The position numbers were made by a program, and so were the translations under genes. This document shows positions 4,755 to 22,200 of a DNA stretch of 24,147 bases, piece after piece. How positions within the stretch are numbered: position 1 is the first letter of the stretch; each line of letters begins with the position of its first letter. Origin of the DNA: Thalassiosira profunda (Eukaryota > Bacillariophyta > Thalassiosirophyceae > Thalassiosirales > Thalassiosiraceae); contig JALLAP010000261.1 of NCBI GenBank assembly GCA_036939355.1, positions 1 to 24,147 of the forward strand, read 5' to 3'. The notes under the pieces are model-generated. The model was not told where the DNA came from. It did no database searches and saw only the letters and a list, made by a program, of their open reading frames with translations.

Positions 4755-5938
4755 TTAGCGTTGAGACTCCCTCAATCCTCTTCGCCGCTCCTTCTCGTCG
4801 TTCAGCTCGGCGATGCGATTGTTCAGCCGTTCGAGGGCCGAGTTGTCAATGCCAATGCAATCGGACGCCTCAAAGAGGCCAGCGATAGTGTACTGAAAGG
4901 AATCGCCATGGACGGTTCGCTTCAAGCTGCTCATGATCTTGGCATCGTCCTCGCACGGATCGATATGCAGCTCGCGAAGCAAGCCCCGGCATTCCAGCAG
5001 CAGCGATACGACATTGTGGCACCGCACGGCGACCTTCTCGTCGTCCTTATCCGCCTTGCTGCGGAGCTCCTCCCCCTGCTCCAAGTTGAGGCTCGATATG
5101 TCGGCGTAAGCCTGCAACTCGCTCGCCATCGCAGCCTCCTCGACACTGCATCCATGCAAAGCGGCGTACGCCTCGTAGATCCGAGTCCGGATCGCCTCCA
5201 GCTCCTTCCGGGCGTCGTCCCTCTCCCGATTGCTTGCCACGATAACATCGCATCCCTCTTTGTGATCAAACCAATCAAGAGACTGACACGAGGCTGAACA
5301 ATCGCCACGGCGTGGCAACGACCACATATCTTGAGGGCGCTGCGATCATTGATTGCATGGCATTTGACGCAGGAGCTCTGTCTAATTGGTTGAGCTGCCT
5401 TGGCGTGCCGATACAATTCATCCAGGCACCCGCACGTTATTCTCTTTGAGAAGAAACGAATGATTTCACGCTCCCCAGCGTTCAGATCGCCACACCTGAG
5501 TTCTGATTTATGCATCCCCTCGGATATGTTCCCTGATGTACCACAATTCTCCAACAATAGAATTGCCCTTGCAAATGTGCTCGTATCGATGCGTGCTCTT
5601 GTGTTCAAGATGGCGTTTACTCCCATTCGAGTGAAAATGTCAGCAACTGTCTGCTTCTGGGCGTCGTTGACCCACACAGAAGGGTGATCGGCGCGAACAA
5701 CGTGCATAGAAGACATGAAGTCGCCGTCGCCGTTCGCGACGGCTTTCTCCGCGCGCCTCCAATCCTCCATGAGCTGGTAAGTTGGATCCTCTTCTCTGGT
5801 GGGGACTGGCGCGCATCCATGATCGCAGAACCTGCACATGGTTGCCAACGTCACCCACGGCGGCTCTGCTCCCTGCGCCTCTACTGCAGCCCCCTTTGCC
5901 TTTCTCGCCCTGCCCCGCTCGCGCTTTCGCGACGGCAT
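4755..5938 (-). CDS. MYND zinc-finger protein, reading frame broken inside the finger
   Basis: Starts at ATG 5938 (MPSRKRERGR). The first frame runs through a region shared with the neighbouring paralogue (IFTRMGVNAIL, GEREIIRFFSKR) into the first half of a MYND finger (SCVKCHAINDRSALKICGRCHAVA). The second half (CSASCQSLDWFDHKEGC) continues in another frame to the stop at 4755. The two halves abut at about 5301-5302, where GCG-AT-TGT stands in place of the expected Ala-Tyr-Cys codons, so exactly one base is missing. The paralogue at 6297-7195 has a phase-2 intron in the Cys codon just after this Tyr; here no intron is present. The downstream frame stays open for 165 more residues and ends in a charged helix (ALERLNNRIAELNDEKERRR). 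Without the break the protein would be about 394 residues. Either it is a young pseudogene or there is a base-call error. MYND fingers bind proline-rich partner peptides. Confidence 0.72.
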
Positions 5939-6296: not shown

Positions 6297-7195
6297 ATGC
6301 CCTCGAGGAAGCGGAATAAGGGGAAGGGGAGAAGGGCAGCTGCCCTTGCCTCCCGCGCGCCAAACCAGGTCGCGGCGCCAGCGTCGATCGCGGCGCCCCT
6401 GGGCCCCCGCGAATGGGACTGGGAGTGGTGGGCCACCTGGCCAGGGGACGCAACCACCTGCGATCATTTCCTCCCGCTGCCCGCCCCCGACCACATTGTG
6501 TCGCAATTCATGAAGACGTGGGGGCGCCTCTTCCTGGACGAATACAAGAAAAAAGAGCCCCACCCGTTCAGCACAATGAAACAGATCATGGAGCGTCACC
6601 CTGAAGTGATGTGTTGCAATGCTCTCAGAAAAGTGGCGGCCGACCTGTTCACGAGGATGGGCATAAACTCAGTTTTGATGGGACCGAGGGAATTCCCTTA
6701 CTACAAGAACAAGTATTCGACGCTCCAACCCGGAAAGGTGCTGGAGACGATTGGGACCGTATATGCAATCACAATTCTCATGCTTGAGGACGACGATTGT
6801 TTCTGCACAAACGATGTCATGGGCAAAGTATCTGACCTTATGCACGGAGAACGAGAGCTGGTCCGATTCTTTGCAAAGAGGGCGTCGTGTTCCTGCCTCA
6901 AAGCAAAGTATGCGCAAGTCAAGGAGATGCAGCCATCTAGAACCGGACGCTGCTTCCACTGCAGAGCTATCAAAGATCGCCGTGAACTCATGGTCTGCTC
7001 TCGGTGCAAGGTGATGACCTACTGGTGAGTGCCGCACAGCTAATTGATGCAGATCGTATGTTGTTTTCATCTATCTCACCCGCCTCAAGCTCAAAAGAGT
7101 GCCAGCGACTTTCGTGGCCAACCCATCAGGAGGACTGCAACAAGCACTACAAAGCCCATGTTTGTGAAGAGACGGAGGCCCTGGCATACCGGTAG
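6297..7195 (+). CDS. MYND zinc-finger protein (intact paralogue)
   Basis: Two exons, 6297-7024 and 7090-7195, with a 65-bp GTGAGT...CAAG phase-2 intron, giving 277 residues. The N terminus MPSRKRNKGKGRR matches its divergent neighbour. A Trp-rich segment (REWDWEWWATWPGD) and a helical region (VAADLFTRMGINSVL, GERELVRFFAKRASCSCL) follow. The MYND finger is near the C terminus: CFHC, ten residues, CSRC, KVMTY, then CSKEC and WPTHQEDC, all ligands present. The Cys codon after Tyr is split TG^C by the intron, and without splicing the frame ends at a TGA right after that point. The protein stops about 14 residues past the finger, whereas the neighbour has a 130-150-residue extension, so one copy gained or lost a C-terminal part. 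Function is unknown beyond probable protein-protein contact. Confidence 0.82.
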
Positions 7196-9163: not shown

Positions 9164-10081
9164 ATGTCCACCGCCGCCTCCAGCAAGCGCATCTCCGTCA
9201 CGGTCTGTGAGTTTTGTTACCTCCGCCCTCTTTTTCTGGTGGTACAATATGTTCCCTGATGTCTGATAATGATGTGCACATCTCATGCTCTTTTAGTCAG
9301 CGATCTCGCCTGACCGTGGTGTTACGTCGGTCAGAAGAAGCTCAATGCGGCCGTCGCCTCGTTCGAGGCCGAGGGGTCTGCTCCCGTCGATGTGGAGTGG
9401 AAGGTGCGTAAATCGAAATTGTGATAATTGCAACATTGCAAATACAAGCTGACAATTGCAATTCGCCCTACTGTATCTGATTTTGCTTTTGCACAATGCA
9501 CCATGCACCAAATACAGCCCTACATGATCGACCCCGGCACAAAGACCGACGGGGAAGAATTTGAGGCCTACAACGTCCGCCGCTGGGGTGGGTCCGGGTG
9601 GACGCACAGCCTGAAGCGCAGCGGACGGAAGGTCGGCGCTAATTTTGACAACTGGGTGACCTGGCCCAATACTTTGAAGGCGCATCAAATGATAGCATAC
9701 GTGACCGACCCCAATCGAGCGGCGGATAACAAACCCTCGACGGCGGAATGCAATGCGGCCATCTTTGATGCCATGTACGAATGCGGGGAGAATGTGTCTC
9801 TCGCGGACACTCTGGTCAAGATTGCCCGGGAGCGGCTGGGAGTTACGGAGGACGAGGCAACGAAACTGCGATCCCACTTGCAAAGCAACGCGGGCGCCAA
9901 GGAGGTCCTGAAGGAAATTCAGACGGGACGGAGGCGCTACAACATCGGGGGCGTCCCATATTTCATCGTCGGGGCGGAGCAGGGTGGCAGCAAAGTGGGG
10001 AGGCCGTACGGATTCTCAGGGGCGCAGGACGCTAGCACGTTCGTGGAGATTTTCGAGGAGCTTTCAGAAAAGTTGGCGTAG
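9164..10081 (+). CDS. DsbA/FrnE-family thiol oxidoreductase, candidate selenoprotein (Sec-Pro-Trp-Cys)
   Basis: Three exons: 9164-9206, 9297-9403 and 9518-10081, with introns GTGAGT...TTTTAG and GTGCGT...TACAG; 237 residues if TGA is read through. Splicing gives ISVTVFSDLA-TGA-PWCYVGQKKL, an exact match to the start of the DsbA-like thioredoxin fold (family consensus SD-x-x-CPWCYIG), with TGA (9311-9313, residue 20) in place of the nucleophilic Cys; resolving Cys23 is intact. Downstream are VEWKPYMIDPG, a helical insert, the cis-Pro loop GGVPYFIVG and the SGAQD motif near the C terminus, as in FrnE/hydroxychromene-carboxylate-isomerase-like proteins. There is no signal peptide, so it is probably cytosolic. 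A SECIS-like hairpin begins 74 bases after the stop. The frame is otherwise undamaged, which argues against a pseudogene. The alternative is a TGC-to-TGA sequencing error or mutation. Confidence 0.85.
9311..9313 (+). other. In-frame TGA, proposed selenocysteine codon
   Basis: It is the only in-frame stop in the spliced 237-codon frame. It falls at the first position of the C-P-W-C redox motif, where selenocysteine would be chemically favoured. A single C-to-A difference from TGC would also explain it, so the SECIS-like element downstream is the decisive support. Confidence 0.75.
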
Positions 10082-10713
10082 GACGAGAACAATCGGAGCG
10101 AAGCGGGATCAGGGATCCAACAAAGAAGTGCAACGTGCCATCCTGGATTGCGTGAATGATCGAACAGTGGGCACTGGATTCGTCGCCCACTGTTCGTGAG
10201 AATCGCATGTGCTTGACATTCGCATGCATTATTATTTGTTGGACCTCAAGTTGTCTCCGGCTGCCTCTTCCTTCCACGGCGTAAAAACTGTATTTTCTAC
10301 TGTATTGTGTTACCGATGGCAACGCGTTTATTGTAATTGTACCCTCTATTTGTTGCAAGTCACGTGTCTCTCACATGCACCATCTTTACCTACACTTCCC
10401 AATCTGTCCGTGCTTTGGCAGCGGCAAGTTCGAGTCGGTCTTCTGCTCTCGCATTCCTTTGCAATCTCGTTGGGGCCGACCTTTCACGAAGGGGCTGTAT
10501 CAATGGACCGAGGTTAGGGGCGGCTGGACATTTTCGGAATGCGGCACTCCCCGGAACTCCCCGAAAAAATCGGGGCTGTGCTGCTGTGGTGAGTGAGTGG
10601 TGATTTTGATGTCAACTCAAGCACCCGCACGCAGAAGCGCCAGGGACAGCGCGAGACCACATTAATGGAGCACGCCATTGACCTCGCAATTGCAACTCAA
10701 AACACTCGCGACG
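10082..10713. other. 3' UTR of the selenoprotein gene and upstream region of the membrane-protein gene
   Basis: Apart from the SECIS-like hairpin there is no supported gene. A 73-codon Cys-rich frame at 10375-10596 resembles no family. A small GC hairpin, CCCCGAAAAAATCGGGG, lies near 10559-10575. A TTGCAA palindrome lies about 25 bases before the next ATG, perhaps in its leader. Confidence 0.45.
10150..10206 (+). promoter_or_regulatory. Candidate SECIS element in the 3' UTR
   Basis: ATGA (10156-10159) is followed after one T by CGAACAGTGGGC (10161-10172). A 12-base loop and the perfect complement GCCCACTGTTCG (10185-10196) come next, then TGA (10197-10199). This is the order of a eukaryotic SECIS: AUGA/GA non-Watson-Crick quartet at the base of a roughly 12-bp helix II. 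A weak helix I could form from TGCG before and CGCA after. The apical loop ACTGGATTCGTC lacks the usual AA or CC, so it is a variant or helix II pairs differently in part. Confidence 0.72.
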
Positions 10714-12824: not shown

Positions 12825-14360
12825 CTACTTGGCGCCGTCGCCGACCGAGATCATCACAGAGGGAGGATATGCGAGCGAGACCTCTTCCGTCAATCTCGAG
12901 TGGAGATCCTCCTCCAGCTTCTCATTCTGCCGCTCCGCCGCCACGGCCTCGTCGCGGAGGCCTTCCCGCCGCTCGAGGACGGCGCGATAGTTCAACATGA
13001 GGGACTCGGCGTTTGTCCACTCAGCGCCCTTGGCCGGGTTGTCGCCCTCTGGTGCCAGTCCCAACTCGTCCGACGCATCCATCTTGCACTCGTTCGTCCG
13101 GTTTGATCGAAGGCAAGATGGGTTTGTCACCTCCGATGTGCAGCTCTGCTCGGCACAGCCGATGGCACCCTCGAAGATAAATTCCTGCGACCGCCGCAGC
13201 TCGCCCTGCAGCTGCTGCAGGTCGTCCCGATGCATACCCCGCACGGCCCGGTACTTCTCGTCGTCCGTCGCCCGGAACCGCTCGAACTTGTCCCGCAGCC
13301 CGCCCGACTGCGCCTCGATCCGCTCGCAGGCGCCCTCCAGCGCTTCGTTCTGGCGCAATCCCAGCGCCTTGGCGCGCTGCCGCCCCTCCAGCTCGCGGGC
13401 CAGCTCCTCTTTTCCCTTGAGGATGCGCCGCTTCTGCTTGTTGGCCGCGGGCGAGTGTTCCGACAGCTCCGCGAGGACGCGGACGTTGTGCTCGAGCTTG
13501 TCCGTGTCGAAGTCGTGGCGGGCGCGGGTGTCCTCGAGGTCAATTTCGAGGTGGCGCACGCCGTCCTCGAGGCGCCGCTGGAGGGCCTCCCTCTCCTGTT
13601 CGCCCTGGGCCTCGCTCTCCTCGATGCCGCGACGGTGCTCGTCGATGATTTGACGCTGCCGCTCGAGGCCCTCGGCCTCGGCCCGCTCGCGTTGCGCGAG
13701 GAGGGCGCCCAGCTCGTCCCGGTTGGTGTTGAGAATGTAGTCTCGGTCGGCCGCGAGGGACTCCTCGATGAGCTTGAGCTCCCGCTCGAACGCCTCCTTC
13801 AATTTGGCGTGCTCCTCGGCGATGGTTTGCTGCATCGCTTCAACCTCGAGGCGGTTCCGCTTCAAGGCGGTGACGTACTGGTGGTCCTTCTCGCGGAGCT
13901 CGGATCCCAATTCCTGGCCGATGCGCTGCAACTTTTCCAAGGCCGTCTCGCAGACGCTTTGCTGGTTATCGAGCAGCTTTACCAGATTTTGGACGTTCGT
14001 CGCCTCCTGGCATTGCTTCCACCCCGCCGTAACAGTGTCGTCTTGTTGGACATCGTGGACCTGGGCCAGGAGCTCCTCCCTCTTTCGGTCGCTGCACTGC
14101 TCCTCGTCCCGCCTTTGGGCCTCGCGTTGGTCGGTCTTGACGCGTGCTTCGGTCACCAGATCCGTGCTCTGTCTGAGTTTGGCGTCGAGGTGTTTGAAGG
14201 ATGCCGAAACGGTTTCCTCACTCGCCAACGTTGTTTCGTTCGGCGACGATTGTTCGTCGCTCGGAGCGTCGGTGCTGCGACTTCCGGCGATGCGTTCGCG
14301 ACGAAGTTGCTTCCGTCGTGCCTTGGCCTGCGATTCTTCGTCGTTGGCGGTGGGCGGCAT
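12825..14360 (-). CDS. DRC1: Dynein regulatory complex protein 1-like (nexin-DRC, axoneme)
   Basis: Single exon, 511 residues, almost wholly coiled coil from about 50 to 410. The pattern matches DRC1/CCDC164: a WKQCQ-containing segment, then LREKDHQYVTALKR (family: ELKEKDDQYVKDLK-like), repeated Glu/Arg helices, DFDTDKLEHNVRVLAEL, and KQKRRILKGKEELARELE. The C-terminal block has the Trp-Asn-Tyr-x-Leu-Glu pattern (EWTNAESLMLNYRAVLERR...QNEKLEEDLHSRL). The protein anchors the nexin-dynein regulatory complex to the outer doublet and is needed for regulated flagellar beating, so the organism should make a motile flagellum at some stage. It is shorter than the animal protein. Confusion with the related DRC2/CCDC65 is possible, but the KDxQYV and C-terminal motifs favour DRC1. 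CCTTTACCTTTACCTTTAG lies about 40 bases upstream of the start. Confidence 0.8.
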   Translation of the reverse strand: MPPTANDEESQAKARRKQLRRERIAGSRSTDAPSDEQSSPNETTLASEETVSASFKHLDAKLRQSTDLVTEARVKTDQREAQRRDEEQCSDRKREELLAQVHDVQQDDTVTAGWKQCQEATNVQNLVKLLDNQQSVCETALEKLQRIGQELGSELREKDHQYVTALKRNRLEVEAMQQTIAEEHAKLKEAFERELKLIEESLAADRDYILNTNRDELGALLAQRERAEAEGLERQRQIIDEHRRGIEESEAQGEQEREALQRRLEDGVRHLEIDLEDTRARHDFDTDKLEHNVRVLAELSEHSPAANKQKRRILKGKEELARELEGRQRAKALGLRQNEALEGACERIEAQSGGLRDKFERFRATDDEKYRAVRGMHRDDLQQLQGELRRSQEFIFEGAIGCAEQSCTSEVTNPSCLRSNRTNECKMDASDELGLAPEGDNPAKGAEWTNAESLMLNYRAVLERREGLRDEAVAAERQNEKLEEDLHSRLTEEVSLAYPPSVMISVGDGAK

Positions 14361-14646: not shown

Positions 14647-16660
14647 CTACGAGCACGGGTTTGTACAACTGCCGGGGCAGTTGCTGCCACCATCGCAGCA
14701 GCAGGACGTGAAGCCACTTCCAAAGTTGATGTCGTCACAGACAGCGGAGCCACTAAGGCACGTCAATTGGACGGTAGGTGCATCGAAAGTAGCTGCCTTG
14801 CATGCTGCCGTCCCTGCGCAGTACGCAATGATGGTGTTTAGGCTGCTGAACCTCCTATCTTGGCATGCATCTTCAGCTCCGCACTCTAGATTGAGCGTGT
14901 TCTTAGCTGCCATATTGCCTGCCTTACAAGCAGCTTTCGCTGAGCAACAGGCCGTAAGGTCTCCTGGAGGGGGGCCTAAGTTCCCCATATCCTGGCAGGA
15001 GTCTTCGCCGCTACAATCAAAGTAGAAATGGGGGCTGCCCAAACCATCGTTGTCGATGCTTCCCTTATCCGCCGTAGATTTGCAAGAAGCCTTTCCCTTA
15101 CACTTCCACAGAGTGTCTAAACTATTGTTTTCACATATCCCCCCTGCGCAATTGATGCATTCATCGTCCTCCGTACAATCATATGTATTTTGGACGTCGG
15201 TGGGCTGTAGGTTCTGAATTACTGTGCACGCCTGTGGCGTCATTGTGGGAGACTGCAAGAGACGTCATGAGCAATTGAGCGAGAGGTACAAAAGGCTTGC
15301 GAGTACCAGCATCAAACGATTTTGTACTCACCTCGGCAGGATTCCTCGTCGGCGATTCAGTCGGATTCTTCGTCGGAGACTGCGGGCGGGAGATGAGATG
15401 TGCACGTGATGTGAGCGAGATGGAATGAGAGGCTTGCAATCGAATCAGCGTCGAACGAGACCCTGCACTCACTTCAGTGGGGTTCTTGGTCGGCGACTCG
15501 GTCGGGTTCTTTGTCGGCGACTCGGTCGGATTCTTCGTGGGAGACTGCGGGCGGGAGATGAGATGTGCACGTGATGTGAGCGAGATGGAATGAGAGGCTT
15601 GCAATCGAATCAGCGTCGAACGAGACCCTGCACTCACTTCAGTGGGGTTCTTGGTCGGCGACTCGGTCGGGTTCTTTGTCGGCGACTCGGTCGGATTCTT
15701 CGTGGGAGACTGTGGGCGGGAGATGAGATGTGCACGTGATGTGAGCGAGATGCAATGAGGGGCTTGCAACCTATCAGCAAGAACAAGACTCTGCACTCAC
15801 TTCGGTGGGGTTCTTCGTCGGCGACTCGGTCGGGTTCTTCGTGGGAGACTGCAGACAAAACAACGCATGTGAATGAGATGTGAGAAAGAATGGTCAAAGA
15901 TAGATTTTGCAAGTGGTGCGCCCGAGAAGACAATTGTGCTCACCTCCGTGGGGTTCGTCGTTGGCGAGACCGTTGGGCTCGCCGTGCCACCGCAAAATCC
16001 TGATTTGGATGGATCGCATACAAGGCCTGGGCAGCAAGGCTTCTTCGTAGTCCCGCCACAATCCGGTGACTTCTGGCCGGTGATGGCGCAAACCTCCTCC
16101 TGGAGGTGCCGCCGAGACTGCTTCTTTTTGCGAGCGCCCTTCAGGACGGGGGCGAGGGGCTGGCGGCTGCTGTCTTCATCGGCGTGAGTGTCGGCGCCGA
16201 CGCCATTGCGGTGGCGGCGATCGCCTGGGATGTCGGGACGACTGACGTCGTCACCGCCGCGAGCGGCACGCGCGCTGCGGGGATTCACCGAACCGCGCGC
16301 GCCGTACCCGCCGCGGAGGACGCCCTCTTGCCCCGGCGCGGCCGGCCCTTCGGCCCCAGCGCCGCCGATGGCGCTGCCGTCGGCGCGTCGACCCTCGCTG
16401 CTGCCGGGGACGTCAGCGTCCTGCTCCTCGCGCGCGCCCTCGGCGGCGCCTGCCGACAGGAGCCCGGCCCCACCGGATGCACCGACAGGGGGCTCGCCGC
16501 CGAGGTCGGCGCGGAGGCCGCCCCCGGCGACAGGAGCGATGTCCAGCAGCCGGCGATGCGCCCGGGGCGCCGTCTTGGCCGCGCGGAGGCCGCCCGCGGG
16601 GTGATCGGCGGACGCGGCCGCGCAGAGCGCCGCGGCGAGGACGAGGGAGCGGAGGTGCAT
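14647..16660 (-). CDS. Secreted Cys-rich protein with duplicated SPTKNPTE linker exons
   Basis: Six exons, all phase 0: 16660-15944, 15848-15801, 15709-15638, 15544-15473, 15379-15332 and 15252-14647; introns are 79-95 bp. The product is 520 residues. Exon 1 has a signal peptide (MHLRSLVLAAALCAAASA), an Ala/Gly/Arg-rich stretch likely to be a propeptide or disordered, and a six-Cys knottin-like module (VCAITGQ, DCGG, PCCPGLVCD, GFCGG) leading into SPTVSPTTNPTE. Exons 2-5 encode only SPTKNPTE units (2, 3, 3 and 2 copies). Exon 6 begins SPTMTPQ and holds about five repeats of C-x-G/A-x-x-A/S-C spaced about 20-25 residues, perhaps a disulfide-rich solenoid, ending CCCDGGSNCPGSCTNPC. Such Pro/Thr linkers are common in heterokont extracellular and wall proteins and probably carry O-glycans. 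Family not named. Confidence 0.78.
15380..15709 (-). repeat. Two identical 165-bp tandem repeats, each one exon plus one intron
   Basis: 15380-15544 and 15545-15709 appear identical base for base, each made of a 72-bp exon (three SPTKNPTE) and a 93-bp intron. A third, diverged unit at 15710-15848 has a 48-bp exon and 91-bp intron sharing GTGCACATCTCATCTCCCGC. Identity extending into the intron means the duplication is very recent or the copies are homogenised by gene conversion. Confidence 0.88.
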
Positions 16661-19265: not shown

Positions 19266-22200
19266 TCAGGTTGCAATGCCCTGCGACAAATACTGGAAGT
19301 AATCGTACTGCGCTGTGCCGTAGGAGGTCGTGGCAAACTTGATGAGGTCCAACGCATATGCCACCGTCTGGCTCTTGTCCAGCTCTGGACAGAAACGTTC
19401 TCGCAGTTTGGACACGACCTCTTCGGGTTCTTTGCCCTGAAAGCAGGGGAAGTTGCTCCCTCGGCATGTAACCTCGACGACCGTGAGGAAGGTGTCCGCG
19501 TGTGCTTGCAACGCCAGGAAGCCGCAACAGAAGAGGGTCACAAACTCGGAAAAGAGCGGGGAGCCGATGCCGCCCATTACCTCGAGCATTTCCTCCGTGA
19601 GCTTGAAGGGAGTCGACTGCTCCAGGCTGAAGGATCCTCCAGGGGCAATGCCAAATACGAAGCCAAAGTCGATGTGGATAACATGCCCGGCAGTATCGAG
19701 GAGCAGGTTTCCATTGTGCCTGTCCTTGAACATGAAGAGATAGGACATGAGAGAGTACGCCGCCAGGCTCGAGACGAAGTTCTCCTTGGCCTCGTTCAGA
19801 GCCTTGAAAGGATCGGCGGCGATCTCGGTCATCCTTTGGAAATGCCCCACCAATCCGTCTGTGCCATACCCTGGCCTCTTCTTCAGGGAGTCGAACGACA
19901 TTGCGTTGCGAACGCATTCAATAATGCCCGTTGTGAGGCCAGTTGCCACGATCTCGTAAGGATGGACCCAAAGGTCGAGCCCGGCCGTGTCGAAGGCCTC
20001 CTGGCAGAGCCCAATCAGTTGCATCACAAAGGCCTCTTGCCGCAAATCATCGTTTGATTTGACGATGCAGCCGCATAGGTCCCACCCCGGCAGGGATCCA
20101 TGAGGGCTAGACGCCGCCAGCCGCGCTTTCTTCTCGGCCCAGCGCTCGCCAAACGAGAATCGGCCCCAGAATGCCGAATCTNGACGCCGCCAGCCGCGCT
20201 TTCTTCTCGGCCCAGCGCTCGCCAAACGAGAATCGGCCCCAGAATGCCGAATCTTCAATGAGCTTCCGTTCGTTGGCAGAGCCAAACACTGCCGATTGCT
20301 TGAGGAACTGCAGGTCTTTTTGGACGAGCTCGAGGAGCTCTCCATTGCTGACAATGCCACCCTTCCAGAGCCGCAAGGCTGAAAGAACAGAGGATGATAT
20401 TGGGCCACATCCGGCTAGCCGTTGGTCAACTTCACCAGCATCTACCCCCTGCGTTCGATCCGACTTCTCTGACACCGCCTCAGGTGGCTCAGTCGAACTC
20501 GAGGTGCCATTCATCTTGGCTGCGTTCTCTGGGCTCAGATTTTCCTGCGCGGCACGATTCTGGATAATAAGCAAGCGAAGGGCCTCCATGACTTCATCCT
20601 CGTCAATTTCCGCATTGATGGTGATGTCGCTGTTGCCTAGCTGCGTCGTTGCTCCCGGGCTGTCTCCCAGAGGGTGGTCTTCTTCGTAGCGCTTCGCAGC
20701 TTGCTCGTTCATGAGAGCAATCGCTCGTTTCCGGTCCATCGTTTGGATGGCACGACGAGCTGCGGTTGCTGCTCCTTTGGCGATGACGTTGCTGCCCCTC
20801 ATACCTCTTTCCATGATGGCAAACAAGACGTCGCGGCGGAACTGCTTCTCGGCAGTCAGTTGGATTCCGGCACTCTTTGCAAAGTTGGCAGAGGAGTCTG
20901 TTCGTCCCGAGGGTGGGAAGACAGATCCGAGCGCAGACATTTTCCGACTGGACAAAGACATTTGCTGGGATCCCTGTGAAGAAGTAGGCGGCTGGATCTT
21001 GCTGTCTCCATCCGCCTCTAATGGATGGGGAAGCCGCGTCGCGTCTCCAGAGATACCATTTTCAGTGTCGTGATCATCAAAGACAGGCGGCTCAAGACCA
21101 AGAGGCGGAGGAAGATTTTTGATCTTCTCGTGATCGACCAGAGTGGCGATCATGTCAGCCATCTTTCCCTTCTCCTCGTCGGTCACATCAAGAGATGATC
21201 TTGGCGTAAGGGAGAGTACCCTGTGGTGAGACACTAAGATTGAGAAATGAAAACACGAGGGCGTTAGGAACGAGTGGGAAAGGGAAGGTAGAAATACAGT
21301 GGAGGGCAACTCACGTCTCCCGGGACTTGCAGAAGCATCAGAAAGCTGTATTTGCGAAGCACGCGGTGATTCAGGAGGGGCCAATTGAACTTCAGTCAAC
21401 GGATCGTCCCAAAGAACTGTCTGTTTCTCCTCTGGGTCAGAACCATCGCCGTTCTTTTCAGAAGCATTCTCTCCTTCAGCACCGATCTCTTCGGGGGCAC
21501 TCGCTCCTTCTTCATCTTCAACTTCTTCAGAGGCCATCACCTCCCCTTCCGGTTCTTTTGCCGTCTTCGCTTCCCCTACTCCTTCAGCGGGCTCCTCTGC
21601 GGTTGTCAATCCATAGTCTTTGACTACTTCAGTGAGCAGGAGCACTGGCGTGCGCTCCTTACTCCTGAAAACGTGGCCTTCGTTGACCGGAATTCGCACC
21701 GTCCTCAGGAACTGGCCATATCCGCACACTCTATTCAGCGGATCGCCACCCAACACTTTGCCAGAGGACGAATTAATCTCTTTCAGCCCGTCTTGCAAAG
21801 CTTTGGGACGACTTGCGATGTCAAGGAACCTCAGTTTTTCGGCAATGTCCCCAAGTCTGCGAGCAAAGGAAATGTGCTGCGAAAAGTAGACAGCGTTTGT
21901 AGCAATTTCGGCCTTCACGTTGGCTGCATCAGGTCGCAGGGTGTGAGCTCCCAAAGAATCGAGTGCTTCGGACTTGATCTTGTCGAGGCGGACACTTCTC
22001 GTCAAATAGTGTGATCCAAACCTCCTCCAGAGCTGTAGAAGGGAGAAAGATTCGCGCAGCAGCGTCGCCTGATGTTGGGAGGGAGCGAGCATTCCCTGTA
22101 GGCTGACCCCTCCCCCACCCCAACCTCCGTCGAAACCAAACAGCAAGCTCTCCAGCTCTGACACAAAGCGGATGATTGCGAAGCGCCGTCTCCGACTGTG

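Follow-up and report, generated by a model that had tools for sequence, protein, structure and literature searches.

A probable nuclear selenoprotein gene of the DsbA/FrnE family in the diatom Thalassiosira profunda, followed by a SECIS-like hairpin of atypical form

The stretch of DNA analysed here (the window, 24,147 nucleotides, which is contig C260 of the assembly that we searched, 21.8 Mb in 1366 contigs) carries what is very probably a nuclear diatom selenoprotein gene of the DsbA/FrnE family, in which the UGA at codon 20 would be read as selenocysteine (Sec) through a SECIS-like hairpin (probability about 0.93). Sec insertion in this gene is well supported but unproven. Sequence and translation together give three exons on the plus strand (9164-9206, 9297-9403 and 9518-10081) that join to 714 nt and a single open frame of 237 codons, both introns having GT..AG borders. 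In the spliced translation the sole in-frame internal stop is the TGA at 9311-9313, and the frame ends at the TAG at 10079-10081. The features of the gene are the following:

9164..9206, plus strand: exon 1, with the start codon and MSTAASSKRISVTV, from sequence and translation
9207..9296, plus strand: intron 1, gtgag...ttttag, from its GT-AG borders and the frame
9297..9403, plus strand: exon 2, with the redox motif; 107 nt, so that skipping it breaks the frame
9311..9313, plus strand: proposed Sec codon, an in-frame TGA at residue 20, position 1 of (U/C)PWC, from translation and from those homologues that carry C or W here
9320..9322, plus strand: resolving Cys of U-P-W-C, TGT, from sequence
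9404..9517, plus strand: intron 2, gtgcgt...acag, from its GT-AG borders and the frame
9518..10081, plus strand: exon 3, coding for the helical insert and the C-terminal portion of the DSBA domain, from the PF01323 match; stop TAG at 10079-10081
9956..9958, plus strand: codon for the cis-Pro in GVPYF, from sequence and translation

The spliced product reads MSTAASSKRISVTVFSDLA-U-PWCYVG...GVPYF...GFSGAQ, with the TGA at the first residue of C-P-W-C, so that UPWC occupies residues 20-23. The earlier note on this DNA, made from the letters alone, had proposed just such a frame with a lone TGA at the first Cys of C-P-W-C, and it holds. The note had also taken the remainder of the DsbA fold to be intact. 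The translation has PWCYVG, GVPYF and GFSGAQ, and the product (with C placed at the TGA) scores 64.7 bits against Pfam DSBA (PF01323), over residues 12-227 and for a curated cut-off of 25.6. Both the CxxC redox motif near the N-terminus, with Sec allowed, and the cis-Pro loop are present, as UPWC and GVPYF; the Pro encoded at 9956-9958 is what we take to be the cis-Pro position of the fold. A phmmer search matched the product to the FrnE structures PDB 5cnw and 5cp1 (E 6e-17, residues 4-219), and a search of NCBIfam with the product matched no family model.

A hairpin stands at 10149-10207, its ATGA 75 nt past the stop codon. After the ATGA come a single unpaired T, a stem of 12 bp without mismatch and a TGA, and in the fold an internal loop sets the 12-bp upper stem apart from a 4-bp lower stem. 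The claim that such a hairpin follows the true stop was thereby confirmed, at 10156-10199. Its parts are these:

10149..10152, plus strand: 5' arm of the SECIS-like lower stem, TGCG, from the fold
10156..10159, plus strand: SECIS-like core ATGA, within GAATGAT, from the structure scan and the layout rule
10161..10172, plus strand: 5' arm of the SECIS-like upper stem, 12 bp, from the structure scan and the fold
10173..10184, plus strand: apical loop ACTGGATTCGTC, which lacks AA and CC, from sequence and the pattern test
10185..10196, plus strand: 3' arm of the SECIS-like upper stem, from the structure scan and the fold
10197..10199, plus strand: 3' TGA of the core, the G.A/A.G partner, from the structure scan and the layout rule
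10204..10207, plus strand: 3' arm of the SECIS-like lower stem, CGCA, from the fold

On both strands of the 24 kb window the arrangement ATGA-N-(at least 8 uninterrupted bp)-N-GA is found in this element alone; when up to two bulges were allowed and at least 9 bp demanded, one additional window site appeared, at 13645 on the plus strand. Among 3000 shuffles of the 600 nt after the stop, 17 had a stem of at least 8 bp and one reached 12 bp. The element has a folding-energy z-score of -2.7, and 5 of 200 shuffles fold equally well. As a check for a dispersed repeat, 184 bases of the 3' region were searched against the genome and matched only themselves and their own palindrome, with no second copy. 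We call the element SECIS-like because its core, its stems, its position and its association with Sec genes are those of a SECIS and its apical motif is not; judged from sequence, it appears to work as a SECIS of atypical form.

Expression of the gene would proceed from an mRNA spliced from the three exons. At UGA codon 20 the ribosome would meet a Sec-insertion complex recruited by the hairpin past the stop, and Sec would be inserted in place of termination. The predicted product is a 237-residue thioredoxin-fold oxidoreductase of DsbA/FrnE type in which the Sec of U-P-W-C would attack and the Cys would resolve. Its most likely action is to reduce, oxidise or isomerise disulfides, and it would do so at a higher rate than a Cys form; the direction of the redox reaction and the cell compartment, like Sec insertion itself, we infer.

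The genome of the host contains further signs of Sec decoding. A genome profile search returned two genes for the Sec synthase SepSecS, at about 320 bits each; these lie at L006 (contig C266) and L007 (C517), and their nearly equal scores would fit a duplication or two alleles. An in-frame TGA is found in SelW (YCGG-U), in GPx (VASK-U-GLT), in two Prx-like genes, L047 (C1018) and L051 (C632), within AA-U-PIC(Q/L)YNVDR, and in a SelU-like gene of PF13911 (L041, C553:1-2372, minus strand) within RRPG-U-VLC. In each of these families this is, we assume, the known Sec position. From the two SepSecS genes and the TGA codons at the Sec sites of other families it is very likely that the host decodes UGA as selenocysteine. 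A tRNA-Sec was not found, RF01852 giving two matches in the genome, both under cut-off, and the assembly may be incomplete; ARAGORN reads these two as tRNA-Leu(taa) and tRNA-Ser(tga), and they were discarded as tRNA-Sec candidates. Other families of this genome have Cys forms, MsrA (GCFWG) among them. Sep15/SelM had no match in the genome, and none in the control genomes either. Among 30 thioredoxin-domain matches, 25 of them with loci, a motif scan of the loci gave no convincing Sec gene, and the internal stops of one thioredoxin-domain locus, L035, look like intron read-through. The central proposal of the earlier note, that ORF calling had missed a eukaryotic selenoprotein of DsbA/FrnE type whose nucleophile is Sec, is well supported by the frame, the DSBA match, SepSecS, the TGA in other Sec families and the SECIS-like layout described below.

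A genome search with PF01323 returned three genes, and all three, the window gene and two paralogues, have a TGA at the same column. In the first paralogue (L001, C1073:2481-6044, minus strand) the frame breaks right after U-P-W, which may reflect either true decay or an assembly error. In the second (L003, C351:9956-13123) the translation reads ISDTL-U-PNG-FIGKK, that is, a Sec without a resolving Cys (U-P-N-G), the TGA lying upstream of the PF01323 match. The best 120 of 529 homologues of this paralogue include three with WPNG and one with CPNG, while 110 begin after the column and six could not be read cleanly; the second Cys is absent in all four that are cleanly readable. The U-P-N-G sequence suggests that a Sec-only, monothiol-like action may occur within the DsbA/FrnE family.

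The 3' ends of the Sec genes have a layout in common. In a relaxed scan a match was found at four of the five Sec genes then known (the exception being the C1073 paralogue), with 12 sites across the two strands of other loci (237,824 nt). A stricter layout rule (GAATGA-Y, an upper stem, a TGA and a lower stem, with 4 bp or more in each stem), which was written after six of the seven elements had been seen, found all six known elements and gave a single match in 349,684 nt of background that holds 29 copies of GAATGAY. This background is made up of other loci on both strands, some of them overlapping and mostly fetched for redox families, together with the rest of the window, and one of its families, PF13911, has known Sec members. 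The single match lies 20 nt past the stop of the PF13911 gene on C553. It was through this match, at which the rule had not been aimed, that the SelU-like gene was recognised as the seventh selenoprotein, its locus having been fetched because PF13911 has Sec members. The layout of GAATGAY, stem, TGA and lower stem therefore follows all seven Sec genes with readable 3' ends, with the ATGA 20-113 nt past the stop; an eighth Sec gene, the Prx-like gene on C632, stands outside the seven, its contig ending before the 3' element.

Shuffles of the seven 3' regions satisfied the layout rule in 1 to 6 of 1000 trials. The element of the C1073 paralogue is the weakest, having four uninterrupted upper-stem pairs and folding no better than 37 of 200 shuffles; those of the C351 paralogue (21/200) and SelW (15/200) are modest and that of GPx (4/200) is better. 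A MAFFT alignment of four elements was poor, since the stems vary in sequence and in length.

The earlier note had pointed to residue 20 as the place to compare homologues, and in the best 120 of 319 homologues of the window gene this column is C in three and W in two; two others skip it and 113 begin after it. As far as these sequences indicate, homologues have Cys where the window gene has the TGA, and a W in place of the catalytic Cys is best read as a TGA that a gene caller rendered as Trp. Among the homologues listed, the nearest with a named source come from Thalassiosira exigua (79% identity), Skeletonema and Cyclotella, a similarity that makes a thalassiosiralean diatom the most likely host; an unnamed ENA protein is 95% identical across 78% of the query. 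Scans of viral and prokaryotic contigs gave no relative.

These data bear on three other readings. The gene could be an ordinary Cys-DsbA gene whose codon is truly TGC or TGT and was altered by a sequencing or assembly error. Assembly errors do exist here, as single-N joints with duplicated flanks (L015 and the window at about 20.1-20.2 kb) and perhaps as the frame break on C1073, but a TGA stands at the Sec column in three DsbA genes and five others, seven of which, all those with readable 3' ends, are followed by the SECIS-like layout, and the two homologues with W among the best 120 of 319 also speak against it. We consider an error very improbable. Alternatively the TGA could be a true stop, leaving a gene in decay, or one whose product is a short N-terminal peptide or else a protein of 185 residues that starts at Met53 and has no active site. 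In favour of this, 42 of the 113 late-starting homologues (best 120 of 319) begin at residue 53, a position just inside exon 3, for which reason introns partly explain the late starts; against it, 217 further codons are open after the TGA with GVPYF and SGAQ intact, the ENA protein retains such high identity over most of the query, and the distant relatives P0070, P0115 and P0116 keep SDLA-C-PWC upstream. A true stop is accordingly a reading to which we give hardly any weight. Removal of the TGA by alternative splicing, so that Sec would not be needed, is favoured by a Skeletonema marinoi gene model (P0007) that joins ISVT directly to CYVGQ and leaves the motif out, but skipping exon 2 breaks the frame, none of the six AG sites that exon 2 has past the TGA is in frame and the product would lose its redox residue, making this extremely improbable.

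The reading of UGA as Sec, which we prefer, has to accommodate the apex of the hairpin. The published SECIS search pattern, according to the available text of PMC2375036, is NTGA, 10-13 nt, AA or CC, 15-39 nt and GA. We tested for it with a spacer of 9-13 nt and no fewer than 7 bp in the stem, up to 1000 nt past the stop (482 nt for C553; for C351 counted from the end of the Pfam match), and in the stretches tested it followed none of the seven Sec genes. Between 8 and 16 nt past the ATGA no element of the seven has AA, and the lone CC, at 8-9 nt in the C351 paralogue, sits in the stem. An invented positive control, not a real SECIS, was found by the test and was lost once its AA was changed; 298,026 nt of other loci gave 28 matches. 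Rfam SECIS_1 matched neither the window, the 3' region nor the whole genome, nor any of six Sec loci at a lax threshold, an absence that counts little against the element because the model missed the GPx and SelW loci too. As to the hairpin being a SECIS, then, the proposal stands for the core and the stems; the usual apical AA or CC is absent, as it is in the other six readable elements.

It is conceivable, at somewhat less than even odds, that the SECIS of this diatom lineage has lost its apical AA or CC in every Sec gene that could be examined (7/7) and kept the tight GAATGAY...TGA core and both stems, so that Sec would be inserted without the apical adenosines described as required elsewhere, and that DsbA proteins with U-P-N-G form a subfamily alongside, in which the Sec stands alone with no Cys to resolve it. 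That the group as a whole is AA-less is disfavoured by the 16 T. pseudonana genes that a search requiring AA or CC did find, which suggests an AA/CC SECIS in a related diatom. In the available text of the literature searched on unusual and diatom SECIS, we recognised no description of an AA-less diatom SECIS.

Some other features of the window are recorded here. Two head-to-head ORFs, 4931-5938 on the minus strand and 6297-7028 on the plus strand, both start with MPSRKR and have similar Cys-rich, zinc-finger-like stretches; they are probably an inverted gene duplication. An ORF at 15179-15796 on the minus strand contains SPTKNPTE repeat units and longer internal duplications. At about 20107-20250 of the window, and likewise at about 1466 of L015, a single unread base lies between duplicated sequence, and both places look like scaffolding artefacts.

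As a real selenoprotein gene, for which the support is good, the window gene adds a diatom member to the Sec-DsbA/FrnE family. It also illustrates why such genes escape annotation: the TGA lies in the active-site exon, and the SECIS-like element falls outside the usual search pattern. Thalassiosiralean diatoms are major primary producers of the ocean. If the AA-less form were general among them, their selenoproteomes may be undercounted, searches that require AA or CC overlooking them, and the role of the apical adenosine could be tested in a natural system.

The family itself is known. The earlier note erred in stating that reports of it with Sec are rare: Sec-DsbA/FrnE proteins are described in the available parts of PMC2398784, PMC2874816, PMC3473315, PMC6627142 and PMC7539508. 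From what is accessible of these sources, the GOS marine microbial data contain DsbA 1-3 with UxxC or UxxV (PMC2398784), Sec-DsbA occurs in Micromonas, Ciona and amphioxus (Branchiostoma) (PMC2874816), further marine invertebrates have Sec-DsbA/FrnE (PMC3473315), Mamiellophyceae and Mesostigma have Sec-FrnE (PMC6627142), and DSBA ranks with the most widespread algal Sec proteins, diatoms having 20-44 selenoprotein genes (PMC7539508). FrnE is also listed in SelenoDB, in the text of PMC3965025 available to us.

The proteins of algae and marine invertebrates (PMC2874816, PMC3473315, PMC6627142, PMC7539508) are, as far as their available descriptions go, likewise DsbA/FrnE proteins with Sec. In the accessible text of PMC2874816 it is the upstream Cys of CxxC that is replaced, as here, and annotation had gone wrong around the TGA in the genes of Ciona and amphioxus; the DsbA SECIS of Ciona and Branchiostoma carry AA or CC, whereas the window element has neither. 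The host here differs in being most likely a centric diatom, with three such genes found, one of them with U-P-N-G.

The FrnE protein of 5cnw and 5cp1, presumably bacterial, has the motif CPWCYIG, with Cys where the window gene has Sec.

With the eukaryotic SECIS of forms I and II, as the available parts of PMC3328465, PMC2375036 and PMC11227280 present them, the window element shares two stems, an internal loop, the AUGA/GA quartet, an upper stem and a position after the stop; they differ in the apical AA or CC, which is absent from all seven elements here, with no Rfam SECIS_1 match. The 2007 selenoproteome of T. pseudonana lists 16 genes and, in the text of PMC2375036 available to us, no DsbA, its search having demanded NTGA..AA or CC..GA, a pattern present in none of the seven elements found here. 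By the same text T. pseudonana is a centric diatom in which GPx, SelU and Prx occur as selenoproteins (PMC2375036), and in this it resembles the host studied here.
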